Shown here piece by piece: positions 9,604 to 26,009 of a DNA stretch of 64,000 bases (positions are counted from its first letter, which is position 1; the number at the start of each line of letters is the position of its first letter). This stretch comes from Teichococcus aestuarii (GTDB lineage Bacteria; Pseudomonadota; Alphaproteobacteria; Acetobacterales; Acetobacteraceae), in the NCBI RefSeq assembly GCF_003116135.1, contig NZ_PDOA01000007.1:124001-188000 (forward strand). The letters run 5' to 3'. The notes beneath the pieces were generated by a model. That model saw only the letters and a list, made by a program, of their open reading frames with translations, was not told the DNA's origin and searched no databases. Position numbers and translations under genes: made by a program.

Positions 9604-10349
9604 GTGCGGCGCTCCCCGAAATAGATGCCGATCAGCTCCGGATCGCGCAGGATCTCCTGCGGCTCGCCTTCGGCCAGCTTGGCGCCACGGTCGAGGAAGG
9701 CGATGCGGTCCGCGAGCTCCGTGACGATGTCGAGGTTGTGCTCGATCAGGCAGATGGTGACGCCCTCCGCCGCCGCCTGCCGCACCAGCGAGACGAAGCG
9801 GGCGCGCGAGTTCACGTCGAGCCCCGAGGCCGGCTCGTCGAGCAGCCAGATGCGCGAGCCCGTCGCCAGGATGCGGGCCACCGAGAGGAATTTCCGCTCG
9901 GCATAGGCGAGGTCCATGGCCCGCGCCCCGGCCTGCGCGGTGAGGCCGGTCCGCTCCAGCGCCTGGTCCACCGCCGCCTCCCGCGCGCGGCGGGCGGAGC
10001 GCCCGCCCGGCTGCCACAGCCAGGCGGTGTGCTCGATGGCGGCGAGCACGTTCTCCCGCACCGTCATGCGGCCGAACAGCCGCAGGTCCTGGAAGCTGCG
10101 CGCCACGCCCATGCGGGCGATGTGGTGCGGCGAGCGGCCGCGGATCGAGGCGCCGTCGAGCAGCACCTCGCCGGAATCGGCCTCGATGTTGCCGGTGATG
10201 AGGTTGAACAGCGTGGTCTTGCCCGCGCCATTCGGCCCGACCAGCGCGGTGAGCACGCCGGGGCGCAGGTCCATGTCGACCTTCTGCACCGCGGCCAGCC
10301 CGCCGAACTTCTTGTCCAGCCCGCGGACGGAGAGCAGCGGCGCGCTCAT
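9600..10349 (-). CDS. livG: branched-chain amino acid-type ABC transporter ATPase LivG
   Basis: This 249-residue protein has Walker A GPNGAGKT near 38-45, a VARSFQDLRLF Q-loop near 83-93 and an LAYAERKFLSVARIL signature region near 149-163. The latter departs from the usual LSYGQQR, keeping only the Tyr and lacking the GQQ residues. Walker B IWLLDEPASGLD is near 169 and the IEHNLDIV H-loop near 205. It overlaps livM and livF by 4 bp each. It supplies ATP hydrolysis for the LivHM permease pair. The altered signature (AERK in place of GQQR) is worth noting but the rest is intact. Confidence 0.88.
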
Positions 10350-12094: not shown

Positions 12095-13222
12095 TCAGGC
12101 GATCTTCTGCAACCGGCCGCCGCGGATCTGGCCGATCTGCAGCGGCATGGCCATGGTGCCGCCATCCTCCAGCACGCCCTCGCCGCCGACCAGCGCGAAG
12201 CGCCGCACGCGCTGCAGCTCGGCCAGCAGGCTCTCGCCCGTCACCTCGGTGCCGGCCTTCTCCAGCCCCTGCGCCAGCAGCGCGAAGAGGCGCATGGCGT
12301 TGTAGTAGTTCTGGTTGTAGCTGGTCGGGTCGCCATTGTGCTTGGCGCGCCAGTCCTTGACGAAGCGCTGCGTCACCGGGTCGCCCTGGTCCCAGTCGGA
12401 GACCTGGCTGGTGACGATCAGCCCCTCGCTCTCCGGCAGCCCCACGACGGAGGGGATGGTGCCGGCGGAATAGGTGATGATCTGCTGGGTGATGCCGTTG
12501 TCGCGCAGCTGCTTGATGATCTGCGACTGCTGCGCGCCATAGCTGGCGAAGTACACCGCGTCCGGCTTCGAATCCCGCACCCGCGCGGCGATGGCGGCGA
12601 ATTGCTGCGTGGCGGGCGGGATGCTGTGCGCCCCCACCAGCTCGCCGCCCGTCTCGGCCAGGCCCTTGCGCAGCTCCTGCACCACGCTGTTGCCCAGCGG
12701 GTCGTCCACATAGATCAGGGCGATGCGCTTGAGCTTCTCCTTCTGCAGCCAGGGCAGCAGGGCGCGCACCTCCTGGTTCACCAGCGGGATGACGTTCCAG
12801 TAGTAGGGCGAGAGGCCGGCGAGGTCGGGGCCGACGCCGCCGCCATTGACCATCATCACCTTGGCCCGCGTCCCGATCGGCGCCGCCGCCTTGGAGACGC
12901 CGGTAAAGCCGATCATCACCCACACGGCCTTGTCCACATTGGCCAGCTTGGTCATGCCCACCGCGCCGCCCTGCGGCGTGGCCAGGCTGTCCTGCACCGC
13001 CATGGTGATGGGCCGCTTCAGCATGTTGTCGGCGCGGATATGCTCCAGCGCCAGCTCGATCCCCTTCGTGAACAGGCCGCCATACTCGGCGTTCGGCCCC
13101 GACATGGGGAAGAGCGTGCCCACCACATGCGGCGCGGATTGGGCGCTGGCGAGCCGTGGCGCCGTCAGCACCGCGGCGCCGGCCGCGACGAAGCCACGGC
13201 GGCTCAGGACATGCTTGTTCAT
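12095..13222 (-). CDS. livJ: ABC transporter substrate-binding protein, LivJ/type I periplasmic fold
   Basis: This 375-residue protein begins with a Tat-type signal (SRRGFVAAGAAVLTA, cleavage near ASAQ-S at residue 28). The mature domain has the Leu/Ile/Val-binding fold: GTLFPMSGPNAEYGGLFTKG near 35-54, and AEYGG with a following TKGIELALEHI helix. Binding proteins of this class in catabolic clusters often bind aromatic acids. The AGGAGGAG ribosome-binding site at 13231-13238 (minus strand) fixes ATG 13222. It is the first gene of the seven- or eight-gene minus-strand unit running to the MBL hydrolase. Confidence 0.88.
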   Translation of the reverse strand: MNKHVLSRRGFVAAGAAVLTAPRLASAQSAPHVVGTLFPMSGPNAEYGGLFTKGIELALEHIRADNMLKRPITMAVQDSLATPQGGAVGMTKLANVDKAVWVMIGFTGVSKAAAPIGTRAKVMMVNGGGVGPDLAGLSPYYWNVIPLVNQEVRALLPWLQKEKLKRIALIYVDDPLGNSVVQELRKGLAETGGELVGAHSIPPATQQFAAIAARVRDSKPDAVYFASYGAQQSQIIKQLRDNGITQQIITYSAGTIPSVVGLPESEGLIVTSQVSDWDQGDPVTQRFVKDWRAKHNGDPTSYNQNYYNAMRLFALLAQGLEKAGTEVTGESLLAELQRVRRFALVGGEGVLEDGGTMAMPLQIGQIRGGRLQKIA

Positions 13223-13590
13223 GATCTGCTTCTCCTCCTGGACGTGTTCTGGCTGTCTGCCGGGGGAAGAGGGCCTGGCGGGGCGGGCACAGGAGCCATC
13301 CCGTCCGGACGCGGCCATGCCTCCTTCCGCTGCGGTTCCGCGCATGGCGCACCTTCCTCCCCCGCCCGCGCTTGCTGCGCGGGACGCTGTTTCGTTGTCG
13401 CGCGGCCTGTTCGCCGCATGGTCCATCTGCGGACAAATGTCCGGCAGACGGACAAGTGTCCGTTTCCGACCGCAACCTCGGACCCTCGCGCAAGGCCTGT
13501 CAAGAGTGAAGTTCCTTTGCGGCGCAACAAGCATTCGCTCTTGCCCCGCCGCATGAGGCGGCGTTAATCCGGCGGCGCTCCTTGTCGCGC
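13223..13590. other. divergent intergenic region livJ / iclR
   Basis: This 368-bp region lies between livJ (minus) and the IclR gene (plus). It holds the livJ ribosome-binding site and the tandem palindromes at 13430-13462. It also has a less GC-rich stretch at about 13495-13545 where promoters are likely, though no clear -35/-10 pair could be chosen. No small gene is convincing here. Confidence 0.6.
13430..13462. promoter_or_regulatory. tandem palindromic operator, likely IclR-type
   Basis: Two perfect 14-bp palindromes, CGGACA-AA-TGTCCG (13430-13443) and CGGACA-AG-TGTCCG (13449-13462), lie 19 bp centre to centre, in the shared promoter of livJ and the IclR gene. IclR-family dimers bind palindromes of about this size, often two in tandem as a tetramer. 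Assignment to the adjacent regulator is inferred from position. Confidence 0.7.
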
Positions 13591-15901: not shown

Positions 15902-18900
15902 TCAGCCCAGCAGGAAATCCTGCGCCGAGAGGGCGGAGAGCTGGATGCCGTCCAGCACCAGCGCGGTGCCGCTGGCGTCTTGCAGCAGCACGTCCGCGCC
16001 GGCCTGCTGCAGCCAGTAGCCCGCCGGCCAGCCGTCCGCCGCCGCCGGCGGGAAGCCCTGCAGCACCACCACATCGCCTTCGGCGGGGCGGAAATCGGTG
16101 ATGTGGTCCGTGCCCTGGCCGGCCTGGAGGATGAAGCGGTCCGCGCCGCTGCCGCCTGTCAGGATGTCCGGCCCATGCCCCCCGTCGAGCGTGTCGTTGC
16201 CGCCCCCGCCGGACAGCCGGTTGGCCTGGGCATTGCCGAGGATGAGGTTGTCCAGCGCGTTGCCGGTGCCGCGCAGGGGCTGGCTGCCGCGCAGCACCAG
16301 CGCCTCCACCGCCTCGGGCAAGGTGTGGCTGATCCAGCTCTGCACCGTGTCCCAGCCTTCGCCGGCGTTCTCCATCACGGAATCCTTGGAGTGCGCGACG
16401 TGGAAGATGTCGTCGCCAAGCCCGCCGATCATCTGGTTGGTTCCGGCGCCGCCATGGAACTGGTCGTTGCCGGCGCCGCCGAACAGCGTGTCGTTCCCGC
16501 CCTCGCCATAGAGGATGTCGTCGCCATCCTCGCCGGAGAGGATGTTGCCGGCCGCATTGCCGTAGAGGATGTTGTTCCCGGCATTGCCCGCGCCATCGAG
16601 CGCCTGCTCGCCCATCAGGCGGAGCTGCTCGACATTCGCCGCCAGGATGTGGCTGATCCAGCTTCGCACCGCATCGAGGCCTTCCCCCGGCCTTTCCACC
16701 ACCAGGTCGCCGTTGTCGTCGACGATGTAGATGTCGTCGCCCATGCCGCCCTCCAGCCGGTCCGCACCGGCGCCGCCATCGAGGGTGTCGTGACCCGCCA
16801 TGCCGTGCACGGTGTCGTCGCCCGCGCCGGCGGTGATGATGTTGTTCTGGGCATTGCCGGCAATGGTGTTGGCCAGGCTGTTGCCGGTGCCGTGGATCTT
16901 CGCGTTGCCCATCAGCTGGAGATGCTCGACATGCGCCGGCAGCACGAAGCTGGCCCAGCTCTGCACCGTGTCCGTGCCCTCGCCGGCCTTCTCCACCACT
17001 TCGTTGCCGGCGGCGGCGATCAGGTAGAGATCGTCGCCCGGGCCGCCGGCCAGGCGGTTGCGCCCGGCGCCTCCATCCAGCCGGTCATTCCCCGCGCCGC
17101 CGATCAGCGTGTCGTCGCCGCCGCGGCCCAGCAGCCAGTCGTCGCCGGCCCCGCCATCCAGCACATTGTTCGCCTCGTTCCCGATCAGCACGTTCTCGCC
17201 GGCATTGCCGGTGCCGTTCAGCCGCTCGGCGCCCATCAGGCGCAGCCATTCCACGCCCGCCGACAGCACGTGGCTGACGCTGGCTTCCGCCGTGTCGAGG
17301 CCTTCCCCGGCGCGCTCCTCGATACGGTCGCCCGTGGAATCGACGATGTAGGTGTCGTTGCCGGCGCCGCCCGCCATCAGGTCGTTGCCGCTGCCGCCAT
17401 CGAGGCGGTCCTCGCCCTCGCCGCCGATCAGCGTGTCGTCGCCCGCCATGCCGCGCAGCGTGTCATTGCCGCGGTGGCCGTCGAGGCGGTTGGCGGCGGC
17501 ATTGCCGATCAGCGTGTCGCCGCCATCGCCGCCATCGGCGTTCTCGATGCGCGTGCCGGGCGCCAGCACCAGCACCTGCCCGGCGATGCGGCTGGCCCCG
17601 CCCGGCGAGAGATCGATCAGCGAGGCGGTGGTGACGGCGGCGGCGTTCAGCGTGTCGGTGCCGGCGTCATCCTGCAGGAGCGTCCGGCCTGGATCGGCGG
17701 CCACCTGCGCGGCATACTCATCGGTGAAGACATGCACCGTGTCGTCGCTGGCGGGCGCGCCGTAGAGCGTCAGCGACCAGCTCGCCAGCCGGCCGCCCGT
17801 CCCGGCGGCGAGGTCCTCCACCCGCAGCGTCCATTCGCCCCGCGCCTGCTCCCAGAGGAACTGCACGCTGCTGAAGGTGAAGACCAGATGGCCATCCACC
17901 TCCTTGTAGCGGCCGAGGCCGAGCTGATCGAGCAGCACGCTCTCCGTGCCGCCCGGGGAGATCAGGGTGATCCGGAGCTGGCCGGGCCTGGCGTGGAGGA
18001 GGTCCACGGAGATCTCCGCCCGCTCGACCAGCAGATCACCCTCGATCGTCACACCCTGGCTGGCGGTGCCGAGATCGGGCAGGTCCAGCACCCCCCCGGA
18101 GGTGGCGCTGGCGGTGTGGAGACTGGCCTCGGTGGCCGGGGCGGTGCGCCAGCTTTCGGCCAGCCGCACCGCGGCCTGCGCATCCACCAGCCCGAAGCCG
18201 GCCCCGCGCGAGACATGCAGGCCGCCGCCATTCCAGCCGGTGCCGGCATTGACCAGCCAGCCGGCGCCGGCGGCGTCCGTCACCCTGGCGCTGAGGGCGA
18301 GGATGGTCTGCACGTCGCGGTAGCCGAGGGCGGGGTTGGCCTCCAGCATCAGCGCCACGGTGGCCGAGACCAGCGGCGCCGCCCAGGAGGTGGCGCTGGC
18401 CGGGGCCACCACCAGCAACGCCGCGCCGGGGTTGGAGAAGGGCTGCACCGCGCCGGTGGAATCCGTGGCGCCGACGGCGATGCTGTGGCGGTTGTTGAGG
18501 TAGCTGTGGCTGTTGACGTCGTCGCCCGTGGCGCCGTTGTTGCCGGCGGAGCGCACGATGACGGTGCCGAGGCCGCCACGCCCCGCCGACGCCGCGTGCA
18601 GGATGGCGGCGGCGGCCCCGGCATACTCCGCGCTACCGAAATCGTCGCGGAAGTACTCGCCCGAGCGGCTCCAGGAGTTCTGCGAGATATCGACCTGATG
18701 CTGCAGGGCCAGCAGCGCCGTCTCCTGCGCCACGGTGCGCGCATCCCGCGTGTCGAAGCGGTAGGCGACCAGCCTTGCACCGAAGGCGGCGCCGATATCG
18801 CCGATGCCGTTGTTGGCCCGCGCGCCGATGATGAGCGCGACCGTGGTGCCATGCTGGTCGCCGGAGGTGGTGCTGGCGTCGTCATCACCCTCGAGGGCGT

Positions 18901-19087
18901 CGTAATCTGCCGCCACGTCCATCTGGCCGCCCAGATCGCGCAACGCGTAGTTGACGCCGGCATCGACGATGCCGATGCGGATGCCGGCGCCGGTGTACTG
19001 CGCATAGAGCGGTGTGGCGTTGATGCCCGTGCCGTCCTGAAGCTCCCACTGCGCGGCGTATCCGGGGTCGTTGAAGGACTGTGCCAC
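15902..19087 (-). CDS. S8 serine peptidase with P domain and RTX repeats, likely secreted by type I
   Basis: About 1061 residues. The subtilisin-like domain (1-310) has the catalytic triad: Asp42 (GIVDAG), His79 (GDQHGTT) and Ser234 (SATSWAAP, Ala in place of the usual Gly of GTS), with oxyanion Asn183 (SAGNNGA). Residues about 325-445 are a proprotein-convertase P domain. From about 515 there are glycine/aspartate nonapeptide calcium-binding repeats (GGAGNDTL type). These are organised into four 99-108-residue modules and a C-terminal segment ending in hydrophobic residues, the usual type I secretion signal. No signal peptide is seen. Start choice: GTG 19087 lies 6 bp after AGGAGG; GTG 19090 and TTG 19129 are alternatives. 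No type I exporter genes are in the window. Confidence 0.85.
16117..17350 (-). repeat. four tandem RTX modules inside the protease gene
   Basis: On the protein, four modules start with Y/F-[IHL]-V-type strands: YIVDSTGD (17350), YLIAAAGN (17026), YIVDDNGD (16729) and FHVAHSKD (16405). Each contains GEG-[LTW]-DT, a VLxxxVExLxLMG strand and a run of nonapeptides. Three complete modules are 108, 99 and 108 residues long, so they differ by exactly one nonapeptide. This indicates growth by duplication. Confidence 0.75.
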
Positions 19088-19120
19088 CACCTGCCTCCTG
19101 CCTGCTGTGCAGGAGGCAGG
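19087..19120 (-). promoter_or_regulatory. hairpin enclosing the ribosome-binding site of the RTX protease
   Basis: On the mRNA, arms CCTGCCTCCTG and CAGGAGGCAGG (plus-strand 19110-19120 and 19090-19100) form a perfect 11-bp stem with a 9-base loop CACAGCAGG. The 3' arm contains the whole AGGAGG ribosome-binding site and ends at the first possible GTG start. Translation should be blocked until the stem opens. Confidence 0.7.
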
Positions 19121-19207: not shown

Positions 19208-19540
19208 TTATCGCGGGGTGCAGAACATGTCCCGCAGCAGGGCGAGAAGCCGGGCCACGCGCGGGTCAGCCACGCGGTAGTGGAGCGTGGTGCCTTCCCG
19301 CCGCGCCACCACCAGCCCATCCTCGCGCAGCCGGGCCAGATGCTGCGAGACACCCGGCTGCGACAGGCCGAGGCGTGCCGTGAGCGCTCCCACCGTCATC
19401 TCGCCCGCCTCCGTCAGGTGGCAGAGCAGCAGCAGGCGCGGCTCGCTGGCCAGCTGCCGCAGCAGCGCCGCCGCCTGGGTGGCGCTGGCCTGCAGCTGGA
19501 GGGCCTCGGCCTGCGCCGGCATGGCCTCCCGCCCGCTCAT
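19208..19540 (-). CDS. ArsR family regulator, SqrR/BigR-like two-cysteine type
   Basis: This 110-residue winged-helix repressor has the helix-turn-helix at about 48-72 (TVGALTARLGLSQPGVSQHLARL). It lacks the ELCVCDL metal site of arsenic and cadmium sensors. Instead it has exactly two cysteines, Cys40 (LLLLCHL) and Cys107 (LRDMFC), the positions and surroundings used by the persulfide sensors SqrR and BigR to form a polysulfide link. Its ATG overlaps the cydX stop (ATGA), so it is the last gene of the cyd operon. It probably ties terminal-oxidase expression to sulfide or redox state. Family is firm; the sensing role is inferred. Confidence 0.83.
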   Translation of the reverse strand: MSGREAMPAQAEALQLQASATQAAALLRQLASEPRLLLLCHLTEAGEMTVGALTARLGLSQPGVSQHLARLREDGLVVARREGTTLHYRVADPRVARLLALLRDMFCTPR

Positions 19541-19647
19541 GTCTCCGGCGCGCCGCGCCCTTCCTCCATCAGCTCGAACCACATGGCGTTCAGCACGGCG
19601 AAGGCGGCGGCGAGGGGGAGGCCCAGCAGCCAAGCGAAGTACCACAT
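19537..19647 (-). CDS. cydX: cytochrome bd oxidase small subunit CydX
   Basis: This 36-residue protein has one membrane helix and the CydX hallmarks: MWYFAWLLGLPLA at the start, then a central Asn and the FELMEE acidic end. CydX stabilises the CydAB haem site. It lies 19 bp after cydB and overlaps the ArsR start by 4 bp (ATGA). It is too short for ordinary gene-length cut-offs but its position and sequence are convincing. Confidence 0.9.
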   Translation of the reverse strand: MWYFAWLLGLPLAAAFAVLNAMWFELMEEGRGAPET

Positions 19648-19666
19648 CGGGCGGTTTCCTTTCCGG

Positions 19667-20815
19667 TCAGTAGCTGTCGGCGCTGCCGCGCACGCTGTGC
19701 TCGTCCACCTTGCCCCACAGCACCCGGTAGACCCAGGCGGTGTAGGCGAGGATGAGCGGCAGGAAGAGCACCGTGGCGACGAGCATGATGAACAGCGTCA
19801 GGTGCGAGGAGGAGCTGTCCCACACCGTCAGGCTGGAGCGGGGGTCGAGCGAGGAGGGCAGAAGGAAGGGGAAGAGCGACAGCCCCACCGTGCTGATGAT
19901 GCCGAAATTGGCGAGCTTGCTGCACAGCAGGGTGCTCACCTCCCGCCCCGCCCGCAGGCCGAGCAGGGCGCCCAGCAGCCCCAGGAAGCCGCAGGCGGGG
20001 GCCAGCAGCATCCACGGGTGGGCGGCGTAGTTGGCGAGCCAAGCCGCCCCTTCCCGCGCCACCTCCTTCAGCAGCGGCGCGGAGGGGCCGGCGGGATCGA
20101 TCGGGCTGGTGATGCGGTAGCCCGCCATCAGCGCCACCCACACGCCCCCGAGCGCGAACAGGCCGATCGCCGCCAGCGCCGCCACGCCGCCGTAGCGCCG
20201 GCCGCGCTCGGCGACCGGGCCGCTGGCCTTCAGCGAGAGCCAGGCGCCGCCATGCATCACCATCATGCAGAGCGAGAGCGCGCCGCAGAGCAGGGCGAAG
20301 GGGTTGAGCAGGCCGAAGAAGCTGCCCTCGTAGCGGATGCCGTATTCCTCGGTAAGGCGGAAGGGCACGCCCTGCAGCACGTTGCCCACCGCCACGCCGA
20401 AGATCAGCGCGGGGACGAAGCCGCCGGTGAACAGCGCCCAGTCCCACGCCATGCGCCAGCGCGGGTCGTCGCGCTTGCCGCGGTACTTGAAGCCGACGGG
20501 GCGCAGGATCAGCGCCGCCAGCACCACGAACATGGCGAGGTAGAAGCCCGAGAAGGACACCGCGTAGAGCGGCGGCCAGGCGGCGAAGATGGCGCCGCCG
20601 CCGAGGATCAGCCACACCTGGTTGCCCTCCCAGGTGGGGGCGATGCTGTTGATGGCGACGCGCCGCTCCATGTCGGTGCGGCCGACGAAGGGCAGCAGCG
20701 CGCCGACGCCGAGGTCGAAGCCGTCGGCCACGGCGAAGCCGATCAGCAGCACGCCGAGCAGCGCCCACCAGATCAGCCGCAGGGTGGGGTAGTCGAGCAG
20801 TTCATGCAGGATCAT
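19667..20815 (-). CDS. cydB: cytochrome bd ubiquinol oxidase subunit II
   Basis: This 382-residue integral membrane protein starts with the diagnostic [27 protein letters not shown] stretch (residues about 13-39, given as LRLIWW...DGFDLGVG). WEGNQVWLI is near residue 62 and [13 protein letters not shown] near 100. CydB supports CydA in the quinol-oxidising, O2-reducing complex in the inner membrane. It starts 6 bp after cydA and is followed by cydX. The length matches the family. Confidence 0.95.
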
Positions 20816-20821
20816 GGCACG

Positions 20822-22405
20822 TCACTCCGCCGGCAGGGCGCGCAGCGGCGCCGCGGGAGCTGCGGGATGCGCGGGAGCCGAGGATGCCGGTCCCTTGCGG
20901 ATGGCCTTCAGCATCAGCCCCATCTCGACCACCGCCAGCACGCTGTAGATCAGGGTGAAGCCGGCGATGGTCAGCAGCACCTCGGTGACGCCGAGATGCG
21001 AGACCGCCATGGCGGTGGGCAGCACGCCCTCGATGATCCAGGGCTGGCGGCCGTATTCGGCGACGATCCAGCCCAACTCGGCGGCGACCCAGGGCAGCGG
21101 GATGCTGCACACCGCCACCCAGAGCAGCCAGCGGTGCCGGTCCAGCCGGTGCCGGGCAGAGAGGTAGAAGAAGGTGGCGGTGAGCAGGATGAAGAACATC
21201 CCGAGCCCGACCATGATCCGGAACGACCAGAACAGCGGCGCCACCTGCGGCACCGTGTCCCAGGCCGCGCGGCTGATCTGCTCCGGCGTGGCCTCGCGGG
21301 GGTCGTCGAGGTAGCGGCGCAGCAGGTAGGCGTAGCCGAGCTGGCGGCCATGCGCCTCGAAGGCCTGCTGCAACGCCGCCGGCACCGCCGCGCCGCGCGG
21401 CAGGGCGCGGATCTGCTGGAGCGCGTCATAGGCCAGGATGCCCTGGCGCACCCGCTCCTCCGCCCGCGCCACCAGCGCCTTGATGCCCGGCACCTCGGTG
21501 GTGAGCGAGCGGGTGGCGATCAGCCCCATCAGGCCGGGGATGTGGATGGCGTAGTGCGTCTCGCGCGCCTCCTGGTCGGGGAAGCCGAAGGCGGTGAAGG
21601 CGGCGGGCGCCGGCTCCGTCTCCCACATCGCCTCGATGGCGGCGAGCTTCATCTGCTGGTGCTCAGTGGCCAGGTAGCCGCTCTCGTCGCCGAGCACGAC
21701 GACGGAGAGCGAGGCGGCGAGGCCGAAGGAGGCGGCCACCGTCATCGAGCGCCGCGCCAGCGCCACGTGCCGCCCCTTCAGCAGGTACCAGGCGGAGACG
21801 CCGAGCACGAAGAGGGCCGCCGTGACATAGCCGGCCGAGACGGTGTGGACGAACTTCGCCTGCGCCACCGGGTTGAACAGCACGGCCCAGAAGTCGGCCA
21901 CCTCCATCCGCATGGTCTGCGGGTTGAAGGCGGCGCCGACGGGGTTCTGCATCCAGCCATTGGCGATCAGGATCCAGAGCGCCGAGAGGTTGGAGCCGAG
22001 CGCCACGGCCCAGGTGGCCGCGAGGTGGCCGAGCTTCGAGAGCCTGTCCCAGCCGAAGAAGAACAGCCCGACGAAGGTGGCCTCCAGGAAGAAGGCCATC
22101 AGCCCCTCGATGGCGAGCGGGGCGCCGAAGATGTCGCCGACATAGTGGCTGTAGTAGCTCCAGTTCATGCCGAACTGGAATTCCATGGTCAGTCCGGTGG
22201 CCACGCCGAGCACGAAGTTGATGCCGAACAGCGTGCCCCAGAAGCGCGTCATCTCCCGCCACACGGCGCGGCCGGTCATGACATAGACCGTCTCCATGAT
22301 GGCCAGCAGGATCGACAGGCCGATGGTCAGCGGCACGAAGAGGAAGTGGTAGAGCGCGGTCAGGGCGAATTGCAGCCGTGACAACGCGACGACGTCGAGT
22401 TCCAT
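20822..22405 (-). CDS. cydA: cytochrome bd ubiquinol oxidase subunit I
   Basis: This 527-residue subunit contains the three haems. Axial ligands are seen at His20 (ALYHFLF), His187 (FVHTVSAGY) and Met398 (FRIMVGLGM), and the quinol-side motif GWIVAEYGRQPW is near 445-456. The length and GRQPW context resemble the long-Q-loop E. coli type. It oxidises quinol and reduces O2 with high affinity, and such oxidases resist sulfide, cyanide and NO. It follows cydC by 85 bp in the operon and precedes cydB by 6 bp. Confidence 0.95.
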   Translation of the reverse strand: MELDVVALSRLQFALTALYHFLFVPLTIGLSILLAIMETVYVMTGRAVWREMTRFWGTLFGINFVLGVATGLTMEFQFGMNWSYYSHYVGDIFGAPLAIEGLMAFFLEATFVGLFFFGWDRLSKLGHLAATWAVALGSNLSALWILIANGWMQNPVGAAFNPQTMRMEVADFWAVLFNPVAQAKFVHTVSAGYVTAALFVLGVSAWYLLKGRHVALARRSMTVAASFGLAASLSVVVLGDESGYLATEHQQMKLAAIEAMWETEPAPAAFTAFGFPDQEARETHYAIHIPGLMGLIATRSLTTEVPGIKALVARAEERVRQGILAYDALQQIRALPRGAAVPAALQQAFEAHGRQLGYAYLLRRYLDDPREATPEQISRAAWDTVPQVAPLFWSFRIMVGLGMFFILLTATFFYLSARHRLDRHRWLLWVAVCSIPLPWVAAELGWIVAEYGRQPWIIEGVLPTAMAVSHLGVTEVLLTIAGFTLIYSVLAVVEMGLMLKAIRKGPASSAPAHPAAPAAPLRALPAE

Positions 22406-22490
22406 CCGATCCCGCCGGGGTGCAGCCGGCGTCCTCTCGATGTTGCGGCCGGCGCCGGAGCGCGTCGGCCGTGAAGCCCGGGGCGGCGCC

Positions 22491-24164
22491 TCAGCCGGGG
22501 CGCAGCGCGGCGAGGGCGGCGGCGAAGCCCGCCTCGCCCCGCCGGTGCTCGCCCACGAGGCGGCCTTCCTCCAGCAGCAGCAGCCGGTCGGCCAGCGCGG
22601 CCTCGCGGCGCAGATGGGTGCAGATCAGCAGGCTCGCGCCCTCCGCCCGGGCGGCGAGGCGGGCCAGCACATCGGCGGCGAGGGCGCCGTCCATCCCCTC
22701 GGTCGGCTCGTCGAGCAGCCAGAGGGGGGCGCCGCGCAGCAGCAGCCGGGCCAGCGCCAGGCGGCGGGACTGGCCGCCGGAAAGCCCGGCGCCGCCCTCG
22801 CCGAGGCGCGCCTCCAGCCCCTCGGGCAGGGTGGCGACATGCGCGGCGAGGCCCGCATCGGCCAGCGCGCGCCAGAGGCGGGCATCGTCGGCCGTGGGGT
22901 CGGCCAGCAGCAGGTTGCCGCGCAGCGTGTCCTGGAACAGCTCGGTCCGCTGGGTCAGCAGGGTGGCGGGCAGGGCGGCCACCTGCCCCTCCCACGGCGC
23001 CAGCTCGCCGGCCACCAGCGCCAGCAGGGTGGATTTGCCCGCGCCGCTGGCACCGATGACCGCCACGTGCTCACCCCGCGCCACGCGCAGGCTGATGCCG
23101 CGCAGCGCCGGGTGGGCGGCGCCCTCGTGTCCGGCAGTGACGCTCTCCAGCCGCAGCGCCTCGCCCGTGGCGGGCAGCGGCAGGGGGGCGGGGGGCGCCG
23201 CGGGCGCCAGGCGCGGCGCGAGGCGGCGGGCGGCCAGCAAGGTGCGGCCCAACTCCACCGCGCCGCGCCGCAGCGCGCCGAAGGGCTCCAGCGCGGCAAG
23301 CGCCAGCAGCAGCGCCAGCGCCGCCTGCGGCGCGGTGATGCGCCCGGCCTCTGCCAGCGCGCCCACCGCCAGCAGCGTGCCGCAGAGCGCCGCCGTGCCG
23401 GCCAGTGCAAAGCCGAGCCCGGCCTGGGTCTCGATGCGGTGGGCGGTGTCCTCGGCGGCGGCGAGGCGGGCCTCGGCGCGCAGCGTGGCGGCGTGCTGCG
23501 CCGGCAGGCGGCCGGCCATCAGCAGCTCCGGCTGGCCGGAGAGCAGGTCGATGGCGCGGGCGCGCAGCGCCTCGGTTGCCAGGGCACGGCGGCGTGCGGG
23601 CCGCGCCCCCGCCCGCGCCGCCCGCAGCGGCACCAGGAGCCCCGCCCCCAGCAGCAGCGCCAGCATGCCCGCCCCCAGCGCCGGGTGCAGCAGCCCGAGC
23701 GCCAGACCGGTGGCCAGTGCCACGGCCAGCGCCGCGCCGGCCGGCACCAGCAGGCGGAGATAGAGCCCGTCCAGCGCATCGACATCGGCGGTGAGGCGGA
23801 ACAGCAGCCGGGCGGGGCGGGCCAGCAGGTGGCGCGCGGCGCCGGGCGCGGCCCAGCCGCGGAACAGCCGCTCGCGCAGCGCCGCCAGCAGGGCCAGCGT
23901 CGCGTCATGCGTCACCAGCCGCTCGCCATAGCGGCCGGCGGTGCGGACCAGCGCCAGCAGGCGGATGCCGGCGGCGGGGCGGAACACGTCGAAGCCCAGC
24001 GCGCCGGCTCCTCCGGCCAGGGCCGTGGCCGTGATGAACCAGCCGGAGAGGCCGAGCAGCGCCGCGCCCGCCAGGGTGGTCAGCGCCGCCAGCGCCGCGC
24101 CGCCGAGCAGCGCGTCGCGCCGCTCCCGCCAGAACAGCGCCAGCAGGGGGAGGAGTGCCTTCAT
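22491..24164 (-). CDS. cydC: ABC exporter subunit CydC for cytochrome bd assembly
   Basis: This 557-residue fused ABC exporter half has six N-terminal helices (residues 1-300) and a nucleotide-binding domain with Walker A GASGAGKS near 370, signature LSGGQSRRLALARLLL near 465 and Walker B LWLLDEPTEGMD near 485. With CydD it exports glutathione/cysteine and binds haem, which is needed for bd oxidase assembly. ATG 24164 overlaps the cydD stop (ATGA). Walker A and B identify it as the catalytic half in the usual sense. Confidence 0.92.
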   Translation of the reverse strand: MKALLPLLALFWRERRDALLGGAALAALTTLAGAALLGLSGWFITATALAGGAGALGFDVFRPAAGIRLLALVRTAGRYGERLVTHDATLALLAALRERLFRGWAAPGAARHLLARPARLLFRLTADVDALDGLYLRLLVPAGAALAVALATGLALGLLHPALGAGMLALLLGAGLLVPLRAARAGARPARRRALATEALRARAIDLLSGQPELLMAGRLPAQHAATLRAEARLAAAEDTAHRIETQAGLGFALAGTAALCGTLLAVGALAEAGRITAPQAALALLLALAALEPFGALRRGAVELGRTLLAARRLAPRLAPAAPPAPLPLPATGEALRLESVTAGHEGAAHPALRGISLRVARGEHVAVIGASGAGKSTLLALVAGELAPWEGQVAALPATLLTQRTELFQDTLRGNLLLADPTADDARLWRALADAGLAAHVATLPEGLEARLGEGGAGLSGGQSRRLALARLLLRGAPLWLLDEPTEGMDGALAADVLARLAARAEGASLLICTHLRREAALADRLLLLEEGRLVGEHRRGEAGFAAALAALRPG

Positions 24165-25894
24165 AGCGTGATCACCCGGTCCATGCGCGCCGCCAGCACG
24201 GGGTCGTGCGTCGCCAGCAGCAGGGTGCGGCCCTGGCACAGCGCCAGCAGCGTCTCGGTGAGGGCGGCCGCCGTGGCGGCATCCAGATGCGCGGTGGGCT
24301 CGTCGGCCAGCACCAGGGTGGCGGCGGGGTCGGCCAGGGCGCGGGCCATCGCCAGGCGCAGCGCCTCGCCGCCCGAGAGGCCGGCGCCGCCCTCGCCAAC
24401 CCCGCCTTCCGCGCCGAGGCCGGCCAGGCGCAGGGCGCGCGCCGTCTCCGGGCGGCCGAGCCCGGCGCGGCCCAGCGCCACATTGGCATGGCGGGAGCCG
24501 GCGAAGAGGTGCGGCCGCTGCCCCACCCAGGCGATGCGGCGGCGCAGCGCGGCGGCATTCGCCGCGTCGAGCGGCACGCCGCCGATGCGGATGCGCCCGG
24601 CGCCGGGTTCCGCCAACCCTGCCAGCAGGGCGAGCAGGGTGGACTTGCCGGTGCCGCTCGGCCCCAGCAGCGCCACATGCTCGCCGGGCGCGAGGGAGAG
24701 GGAGATCTCCGCCAGCGTATCGCGCGCCGCGCCGGGGTGGCGGAAGCGCAGGCCCTCGGCCAGGAGGGCGGGGGGCGGGGCCGGCCGGGGCGCGGGGGCG
24801 GCCTCCAGCGCGCCGGGCAGGGCGAGCGCATCAGGCGCGGCCAGGGCGCGCAGGGCGCCGAGCGCGGCCTCGCCGGCGGCGCGGTCGTGCCAGGCGGCGC
24901 ACATCTCGCGCAGCGGCTCGAAGAAGGCCGGCGCCAGCAGCAGGATGAACAACCCGCCGCCGAGGCTGAGCGGCGCGCCCCAGCTTCCGGCCTCCAACTG
25001 CCCGAGCAGGTGGAAACCGACATAGACGGCCACCAGCGCCACGCCGAGCGCCGAGAACAGCTCCATCACCGCCGAGGAGAGGAAGGCGATGCGCAGCACC
25101 GCCATGCTCCGCTCCCGCAGGCTTTCCGCCTGGGCGCGCAGCCGGGTGGCGGTGGCCTCCACGGCGCCGAGGGCACGGATGCTGGCCAGCCCCCGCAGCC
25201 GGTCCAGCAGGAAGCCGTTCATGCCGCCCAGCTCCAGCAGCCGCGCCTCGCTGGCGGCCTTCGCCCGCAGGCCGATCAGCGCCATGAAGAGCGGGATCAT
25301 CGGTGCCGCCAGCAGCAGCGCCAGCGCCGCCAGCCAGGAGAAGGGCAGGATGGCGAGCAGGATGAGTGGCGGCAGCAGCGTGGCGCGCAGCCGCGCGGCG
25401 CGGAAGCGCAGCAGGTAGGGCAGAACCGCCTCGGCCTGCTCGGCCAGCACGCTGGCGGCGGCGCCGGAGGCGGGGCGGGTGGCGTCGAGCGGCGAGCGCG
25501 TGGCCAGCGCCGTGAGCGCCTCCGCCCGCAGCGTGCCGAGCAGGGCGCGCGCGGCGGCGAAGGCGATGCGCCCGCCGCGCGCCTCAAGCCCCGCCCGGGC
25601 GAGGCCGAGCAGCGCCACCAGCCCGGCGGGCCAGAGCATCTCCGCCAGCCCGCCACCCTCGGCGAGGCGTGCCACGGCCAGCGCCAGCAGCGCCGCCTGC
25701 GGCAGCCAGAGCAGCCCGGCCAGCGCCTGCAGCAGCGCGCCGCGCCGCACGCCGGCGGGCAGCGGGGTGGCGCGCGGCCGACGCGGGGGGGAGGGGGCCG
25801 CCGCGGGCACGGGCGCGGCCTGCGGGACCTGCCCCGGCGCCTGCGGCAGGAGAGGGGCTTCGAAGCTGAGGGAGGCGGTCTCGCGCGGGGCCAC
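24161..25894 (-). CDS. cydD: ABC exporter subunit CydD for cytochrome bd assembly
   Basis: This 577-residue exporter half is the first gene of the cyd operon. A Pro/Ala-rich N-terminal tail (about 45 residues) precedes the six-helix domain. The ATPase domain has Walker A GPSGTGKS near 395 and signature LSGGEALRLAMARAL near 495, with Walker B LVLADEPTAHLD near 515. The start appears to be GTG at 25894. It works with CydC. A FixK/FNR-type box lies 56 bp upstream. Confidence 0.92.
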   Translation of the reverse strand: MAPRETASLSFEAPLLPQAPGQVPQAAPVPAAAPSPPRRPRATPLPAGVRRGALLQALAGLLWLPQAALLALAVARLAEGGGLAEMLWPAGLVALLGLARAGLEARGGRIAFAAARALLGTLRAEALTALATRSPLDATRPASGAAASVLAEQAEAVLPYLLRFRAARLRATLLPPLILLAILPFSWLAALALLLAAPMIPLFMALIGLRAKAASEARLLELGGMNGFLLDRLRGLASIRALGAVEATATRLRAQAESLRERSMAVLRIAFLSSAVMELFSALGVALVAVYVGFHLLGQLEAGSWGAPLSLGGGLFILLLAPAFFEPLREMCAAWHDRAAGEAALGALRALAAPDALALPGALEAAPAPRPAPPPALLAEGLRFRHPGAARDTLAEISLSLAPGEHVALLGPSGTGKSTLLALLAGLAEPGAGRIRIGGVPLDAANAAALRRRIAWVGQRPHLFAGSRHANVALGRAGLGRPETARALRLAGLGAEGGVGEGGAGLSGGEALRLAMARALADPAATLVLADEPTAHLDAATAAALTETLLALCQGRTLLLATHDPVLAARMDRVITL

Positions 25895-25950: not shown

Positions 25951-25964
25951 TTGCGCTGCATCAA
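25951..25964 (-). promoter_or_regulatory. FixK/FNR-type box upstream of cydD
   Basis: The minus strand reads TTGATGCAGCGCAA, fitting TTG(A/C)-N6-(T/G)CAA, the site of FixK/FNR-class regulators. It is 56 bp before the cydD start. Bd oxidases are commonly induced under low O2 through such sites. Confidence 0.6.
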
Positions 25965-25991
25965 GTTTCAGAACGGAGCGCTTATATATTT

Positions 25992-26009
25992 GGCCGTTTA
26001 TGAACGGCC
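25992..26009. promoter_or_regulatory. 18-bp palindrome in the cydD / binding-protein intergenic region
   Basis: GGCCGTT-TATG-AACGGCC is a perfect inverted repeat next to an AT-rich run (TTATATATTT at 25982-25991). It lies 80 bp before the forward binding-protein gene. It may be an operator; no regulator can be named. Confidence 0.35.

Follow-up and report, generated by a model that had tools for sequence, protein, structure and literature searches.

A SqrR/BigR-type regulator gene recurrently paired with cytochrome bd operons in Alphaproteobacteria

Introduction

Why should an operon for a cytochrome bd oxidase end in a gene for an ArsR-family regulator? The question is raised by positions 19208-25894 of a 64,000-nucleotide stretch of the Teichococcus aestuarii genome (contig NZ_PDOA01000007.1; hereafter the window), where the six genes cydD-cydC-cydA-cydB-cydX-arsR follow one another on the minus strand. 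The original prediction, made from the sequence, proposed that the ArsR protein is a persulfide sensor of the SqrR/BigR type and that sulfide or low oxygen would switch the cell to the bd oxidase. Here we report that the pairing of such a regulator gene with cytochrome bd is real and recurs among the Alphaproteobacteria sampled.

Cytochrome bd is reported to resist sulfide (PMC9774250, PMC11858517), and sulfide is reported to induce cydAB in A. baumannii (PMC7315123). The statement in the original prediction that a link between sensor and bd oxidase is not established for this group needs softening, as the available parts of two reports describe YgaV, the E. coli SqrR/BigR homologue, as repressing cydAB when sulfide is absent, on RNA-seq evidence (PMC9774250, PMC11858517). 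Since this control has been published, the idea is not wholly new. YgaV resembles the regulator studied here as a SqrR/BigR homologue acting on cytochrome bd genes. It differs in that it affects many genes (142) and is not placed in a cyd operon in the text available, whereas the arsR of the window is the last gene of one. The neighbours of such regulators listed in the accessible text of one study are sqr, sox, pdo, rhd, shdr, RND, TauE and YeeE-family genes, without cyd (PMC12423496); another names sulfurtransferases, rhodaneses and transporters in the part available (PMC10509353). A literature search, which did not cover supplementary tables, returned no report of a SqrR/BigR-type gene within a cyd operon in the portions of text accessible. 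The recurring linkage at the level of the operon is the part not found in print within those portions.

Results and Discussion

The arsR gene (19208-19540, minus strand) encodes a protein of 110 amino acids with exactly two cysteines, Cys40 and Cys107. In a phmmer alignment they fall on Cys41 and Cys107 of R. capsulatus SqrR, in agreement with the cysteine positions first proposed. SqrR was also the top match in the PDB (8.6e-21), followed by YgaV, HlyU, BigR and NolR. A profile of 28 relatives gave 104-126 bits for HlyU, BigR, SqrR, NolR and YgaV, and 69 bits for the next chains (NmtR, Rv0081). When an AlphaFold model of the protein (mean pLDDT 91) was submitted to Foldseek, the 28 best rows consisted only of SqrR, HlyU, YgaV, BigR or NolR chains, with reduced SqrR at the top (TMt 0.93, rmsd 1.2). 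In this model Cys40 lies within helix 33-45 and Cys107 just beyond helix 93-106; the persulfide-sensing ArsR group (sequence similarity network cluster 4) has, according to the text available, paired cysteines in helices 2 and 5 as its defining feature (PMC10509353). A helix-3 CxC metal site (ELCVCDL) was not found, there being no cysteine between residues 41 and 106, as had been noted before. A metal sensor was rejected on this absence and on the low scores of SmtB, CzrA and NmtR. The protein is therefore closer to SqrR, BigR, YgaV and HlyU than to metal sensors by sequence, profile and fold, and shares with SqrR and with BigR (Xylella, Agrobacterium, A. baumannii) the fold, both cysteine positions and the best PDB match. 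These sequence comparisons and the predicted structure make its membership of the persulfide-sensing group well supported.

A tree, which the original prediction proposed as a check, also supports this placement, with the deep forks left open. The main tree (109 rows, few columns, many open forks) joined SqrR, YgaV and HlyU to the 105 ingroup rows. Of five ArsR outgroup rows from the genus, four stayed separate and the fifth fell inside the ingroup; BigR and PDB metal sensors were not among the rows. The window protein sits in an 11-row group (support 89/94) together with the five further cyd-linked proteins from the genus, an orphan (L046), L045 (arsR-rhodanese, same genus), L055 (arsR-RND, Elioraea), L067 and L068. 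By path its nearest row is L055, sited before an RND pump. A clade made up of cyd-linked sensors only was rejected, as the cyd-adjacent label needs 9 changes on this tree. On a later, quicker tree it needs 11 among 109 rows, 4 of them forced by the starred branches alone, and it remains clustered there (11 changes against a shuffled mean of 15.2).

For neighbourhoods, the best 80 of at least 571 regulator loci from a scan of genome contigs were taken. Individual genes were examined at the first 25 and at L045 and L048 (no call was obtained for L062), and neighbours were placed for 72 of 81 regulators tried, the other 9 lacking a gene call. Typical neighbours were genes for PDO-like metallo-beta-lactamases, rhodaneses, TauE/SafE exporters and YeeE/YedE-like proteins, identified by Pfam on examples only; the relatives resemble SqrR/BigR in this respect. 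Several near relatives sit in arsR-rhodanese, pdo/arsR-rhodanese-TauE or arsR-RND cassettes, settings typical of persulfide sensors, and L060, L063 and L067 are among those with no such neighbour next door. Together with sequence, profile, fold and tree, these neighbourhoods back the assignment of a SqrR/BigR-type sensor. Within the stretches searched (up to 9 kb on each side, less at contig ends), cyd was found at 2 of the best 80 loci, namely L056, from genus-mate G005, and L104, a Microvirga locus in which short-form cydAB stands with a GbsR-type gene (12797-13351).

The order and close spacing of the operon were likewise confirmed by profile matches and coordinates, with all genes on the minus strand. 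It opens with cydD (24161-25894, GTG start), for an ABC exporter subunit for cytochrome bd assembly (NCBIfam TIGR02857, 483.9 bits, cut-off 435). Its partner cydC (22491-24164) was named from its position after cydD and from its two best matches, both NCBIfam CydC models and each below cut-off (TIGR02868, 326.7 against 329.05 bits; NF008364, 358.9 against 630). Subunit I, of the long form, is encoded by cydA (20822-22405; Pfam PF01654, 596.4 bits, cut-off 26.2), subunit II by cydB (19667-20815; TIGR00203, 452.6 bits, cut-off 117.3) and the 36-residue small subunit by cydX (19537-19647; TIGR02106, 65.1 bits, cut-off 31.6). All five cyd genes are thus present in cytochrome bd operon order. cydD and cydC overlap by 4 bp, and gaps of 85, 6 and 19 bp separate cydC from cydA, cydA from cydB and cydB from cydX. 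The cydX stop codon TGA and the arsR start codon ATG share 4 bp (ATGA), and arsR would be co-transcribed with the genes before it. In this coupling to cydDCABX the regulator differs from SqrR/BigR. Upstream of cydD, on the minus strand, lies TTGATGCAGCGCAA (25951-25964), which we take to be a box of the FNR/FixK type. It is the sole window match on either strand to TTGAT-N4-[AGC][TG]CAA, a pattern picked after the box had been seen. L041 and L044 have an identical box in their cydD promoters, and L046 has one ahead of its arsR.

We then asked whether the pairing extends to other genomes. The genus sample comprised 17 genomes, 16 with cydA and 13 with long-form cydA as judged by match length; the window genome (G000) is 99.95% complete. 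An ArsR homologue stands beside cyd in 6/17, after cydX in G000, G002 (where cydD lies in a run of N), G003, G005 and G015, and before cydD in G014. It stays with cyd in these genomes though its position and the flanking genes differ. In G012 a lone arsR (L046:9983-10345) follows the cyd-type FNR-like box, and cydCABX is found on another contig that starts inside cydC. The L046 arsR is flanked by a neighbour also present in G003, and its second cysteine is shifted by one place. G008 carries arsR with a rhodanese gene, far from cyd. In G004 (L047:5864-10274) a degraded arsR lies next to a truncated cydA; cydD and cydC remain, and cydB was not detected at this locus.

Outside the genus, genes were called SqrR-type if they scored above 90 bits against a profile built on 83 regulators. 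Five of the ArsR paralogues in the genus reach 25-41 bits, and L158 (74 bits) and L338 (55.8 bits) were excluded. Searching for CydX (PF08173) put 37 of the 249 family genomes above cut-off, from which 32 loci outside the genus were fetched; five, all in other genera, had a SqrR-type gene in the fetched stretch (L150, L154, L155, L157 and L165). By a rough estimate about 0.09 would be expected by chance, assuming 0.86 SqrR-type genes per genome; a recount (225 in 249 genomes, about 0.9) hardly alters this. The class search (42/385 genomes) yielded 38 fetched loci after our own genome, one locus already included, one near-copy and one under cut-off had been left out, and two of them, L255 and L267, had the gene. 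From the phylum search (100/398 genomes) 40 loci spread over families were chosen; the gene was present at 2 of the 16 alphaproteobacterial loci (L323, L325) and at 0/24 of the others. This makes 4/54 further alphaproteobacterial loci and 9/86 in total outside the genus, in varied gene orders. Misses are possible, because several stretches end at contig ends (L331 and L332 down to 4 kb).

In L150, L165, L255 and L323 arsR and cyd share a strand, with arsR coming first. L150 (4343-12514) reads arsR-rhodanese-HlyD-RND-CydP-cydA-cydB-cydX and then the beginning of another gene; an AAATACG-N6-CGTATTT repeat precedes arsR, and the CydP-like match reaches 29.4 bits against a cut-off of 29.6. L165 reads arsR-YgaP-TM-cydABX, and L255 reads RND (by eye)-arsR-cydDCAB(X). 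L323 (3950-11549), from another alphaproteobacterial family, carries on one strand arsR, YgaP-TM, an outer-membrane efflux protein, a Crp-like protein, an SQR-like flavoprotein, CydP, cydA, cydB and YgaP-TM; the largest gaps measure about 175 bp. Against the type III SQR model, whose cut-off is 525 bits, the SQR-like protein scored only 82. Operator matches (matrix described below) occur in L323 next to arsR (17.6 bits) and before divergent HlyD/RND-like genes (24.3 bits), and the run may possibly form an electron path from sulfide to bd oxidase under one sensor. In L157, thioredoxin, CMD, arsR and methyltransferase genes run towards cydABX. L155 is a weak case, as called genes intervene between cyd and arsR.

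Because the pairing occurs in 6/17 genus genomes, at either operon end, and in other genera in other arrangements, it is more than chance, and it is probably functional. A mobile arsR that merely landed behind cydX, with no regulatory meaning, would account for the varying gene order, for the patchy occurrence across the genus and for the degraded copy of G004. Such a passenger is very improbable, given that arsR is retained at one or other operon end in six genomes, that SqrR-type genes are over-represented near cyd in other genera, and that arsR is coupled to cydX by the ATGA overlap.

The best single reading of these data is that ArsR acts as a persulfide-responsive repressor of its own cyd operon. 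We regard direct persulfide control as about evenly balanced between right and wrong, because the canonical operator is missing here. In this mechanism, a repressor of the SqrR/BigR/YgaV/HlyU group responsive to reactive sulfur species would be made as the last product of cydDCABX, coupled through the ATGA overlap. Low oxygen, acting via an FNR/FixK-type activator at the predicted box before cydD, would turn the operon on, so that its own sensor is made. The thiol form of the ArsR dimer would bind DNA and keep expression down. Sulfide would give rise to persulfides, a polysulfide bridge would form between Cys40 and Cys107, the dimer would release DNA, and the sulfide-resistant bd oxidase would rise while heme-copper oxidases are poisoned. 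The proposal that sulfide or low oxygen switches the cell to the bd oxidase gains indirect support from the FNR-like box and from the operator and arsR arrangements of some other genera; its sulfide arm loses from the promoter of cydD itself and from the cysteines of two genus-mates.

These and several further observations weigh against persulfide control of the operon. No SqrR-type gene stands beside long-form cydA in 7/13 genus genomes (G007 and G016 judged from contig numbers alone, and G012 with a cyd contig that begins inside cydC). The protein scores 76 bits with the BigR equivalog NCBIfam NF040642, whose cut-off is 155; the homologues of L045, L055, L058, L150 and L157, canonical contexts included, are also under it (72-92 bits). 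Most directly, a canonical operator at the window promoter was searched for with a matrix and a core pattern and was not found. The matrix (37 bp) was built from the 48 regulator upstream regions, out of 72, that matched the core pattern, with the consensus ATATTAG-N6-CTAAATTAG-N6-CTAATA derived here. Held-out operators scored 9.3 to 42.0 (median 30.7), and 540 control genes, which include genes divergent from true sites, gave 90th, 95th and 99th percentiles of -15.3, -11.0 and 9.9. The cydD promoter scored -13.8 bits, within the control range, and the TTAG-N6-CTAA double palindrome of our consensus was not seen there, in which the window differs from SqrR/BigR systems. In the whole genome TWAG-N6-CTWAWTWAG had no match at 0 or 1 mismatch, and at two mismatches it had 32 core matches, a lower number than the 96 obtained with the reversed control. 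With a window-composition background the cydD site is the best in the 64 kb (-4.0 bits), and it ranks second within its own 20 kb when the background leans to AT. These ranks were not used as proof and carry little weight, because any AT-rich promoter ranks high in a window of 72% GC.

An AT-rich element, ATAAGCG (25979-25985, minus strand), lies 14 bp before the FNR-like box and is the sole copy in the window. It was picked after looking and is present in 4/4 arsR-carrying cyd units (the window, L041, L044 and L040, the last with no FNR-like box) against 0/17 other cyd units checked. These 17 are the unlinked loci with listed coordinates except L136 and L160, which were skipped; the list did not take in every unlinked locus. 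The promoters of three of the four units appear to be orthologous, the element is absent from the orphan arsR of L046, and the background is 9/225 upstream regions in 16 genus loci, cyd ones included. As ATAAG is part of the operator form in L058 and L061, ATAAGCG may be a reduced BigR-type site or just a promoter element. Among the other cyd-near regulators, L165 (2.9 bits) and L150 (-4.2 bits) have no canonical site of their own, and a strong BigR-type operator precedes cydA in L157 (26.8 bits, L157:1318-1354).

The missing operator would be expected if ArsR were a genuine persulfide sensor with targets elsewhere (pdo, YeeE/YedE, rhodanese or efflux genes) and no control over cyd, the operon supplying the sensor at low oxygen and so tuning sulfide defence to low-oxygen life. 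The conserved FNR-like box is consistent with this, as are four PDO-like genes located away from the regulator's own contig and a second SqrR-type gene ahead of YeeE/YedE-like genes in the same genome. We consider it unlikely, while keeping it in serious view: the canonical operator core was not found elsewhere in the genome either, ATAAGCG is common to the arsR-carrying cyd units, and other genera have an operator before cydA (L157) or a same-strand SqrR-type gene ahead of cyd.

Cysteine conservation bears on what is sensed. Both cysteines are kept in 83/87 regulators not near cyd (one of the four exceptions is cut by a contig end), in 3/3 references and in 11/16 regulators near cyd, after L056 (a copy of L043), L158 (no Cys at 40) and L047 had been dropped; the last, the degraded G004 copy, lacks the first cysteine. 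The remaining 5/16 (L043, L044, L154, L157 and L325) lost the Cys107 position and kept the first cysteine. L043 and L044 are genus-mates with the gene order of the window, and L157, the best operator case, is therefore itself a one-cysteine case. In Hyphomicrobium sHdrR, according to the text available, replacing the second cysteine by Ser appeared to make repression weaker in vivo, and replacing the first by Ser seemed to lock it (PMC12423496). In light of these data and the five losses, certain branches linked to cyd may have moved away from dithiol sensing; both cysteines are kept in the window protein.

That cyd pairing outlives the loss of Cys107 in the two genus-mates, L154, L157 and L325 could also mean that ArsR binds the cyd promoter and senses heme or general thiol redox, or acts without ligand as a plain feedback repressor. 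SqrR and YgaV are reported to bind heme (PMC11858517), and CioR, a bd-operon regulator of another family, is reported to act as an autorepressor (PMC11837568). The window protein itself retains both cysteines at the right places and has no metal-site cysteines in helix 3; we hold this reading to be rather improbable.

Other cyd operons carry a regulator of another kind. CydE (Alishewanella) and CioR (C. violaceum) are described as small winged-helix regulators encoded in cyd or cio operons, in which they resemble the window ArsR (PMC6207618, PMC11837568), and 34 gbsR genes are reported to adjoin cyd (PMC6207618). They belong to the MarR/GbsR family, with about 190 residues and a different kind of sensor, and the 110-residue ArsR is not one of them. 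In two genus-mates (genomes G001 and G010; loci L054, 13205-13795, and L152, 9753-10349) a MarR/GbsR-type gene of the CydE/CioR kind stands directly before cydD in place of arsR. Another belongs to the short-form cyd operon of the window genome (L050, 6103-6687); Pfam was run on L054 only. A palindrome of the TTTCAG...CTGAA kind lies upstream of each GbsR-type gene in L054, L152, L050 and L104.

Recurrent pairing in different gene orders points to a built-in switch for respiration under sulfide. Persulfide control of the operon could then be one instance of a wider pattern, in which Alphaproteobacteria several times built a self-contained module for sulfide-proof respiration by placing a SqrR/BigR-type sensor in or beside the bd operon, where sister species have a GbsR-type CydE/CioR. 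We hold this to be tentative, its chances falling just short of even; with the same reserve, L323, with its SQR-like flavoprotein and CydP, and L150 and L255, with an RND pump, would be variants of the module. If this is true, bd oxidase gains, in addition to oxygen control, a persulfide switch of its own, and evolution treats it as part of the sulfide-defence regulon. GbsR-type and SqrR-type regulators at cyd within one genus would then amount to a natural experiment in rewiring a respiratory switch. Because the sensor is encoded inside the bd operon, the link is testable with one deletion and one promoter.

Other features of the window and its genome

Between cydD and a divergent gene for a solute-binding protein, the sequence reads as a perfect inverted repeat, GGCCGTT-TATG-AACGGCC (25992-26009). 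The 3' neighbour of arsR on the same strand encodes a large protein with subtilase, P-domain and RTX repeats (15902-19090), and a hairpin with a 12-bp stem (19090-19101 pairing with 19109-19120) lies at the start of this gene. The PDO-like metallo-beta-lactamase matches of the window genome are on contigs C74, C25, C9 and C23 and have 46-57% identity to the PDO-like protein of L058. An ARAGORN call for tRNA-Gly (9980-10071) falls within an apparent ABC ATPase gene and is probably a false hit.

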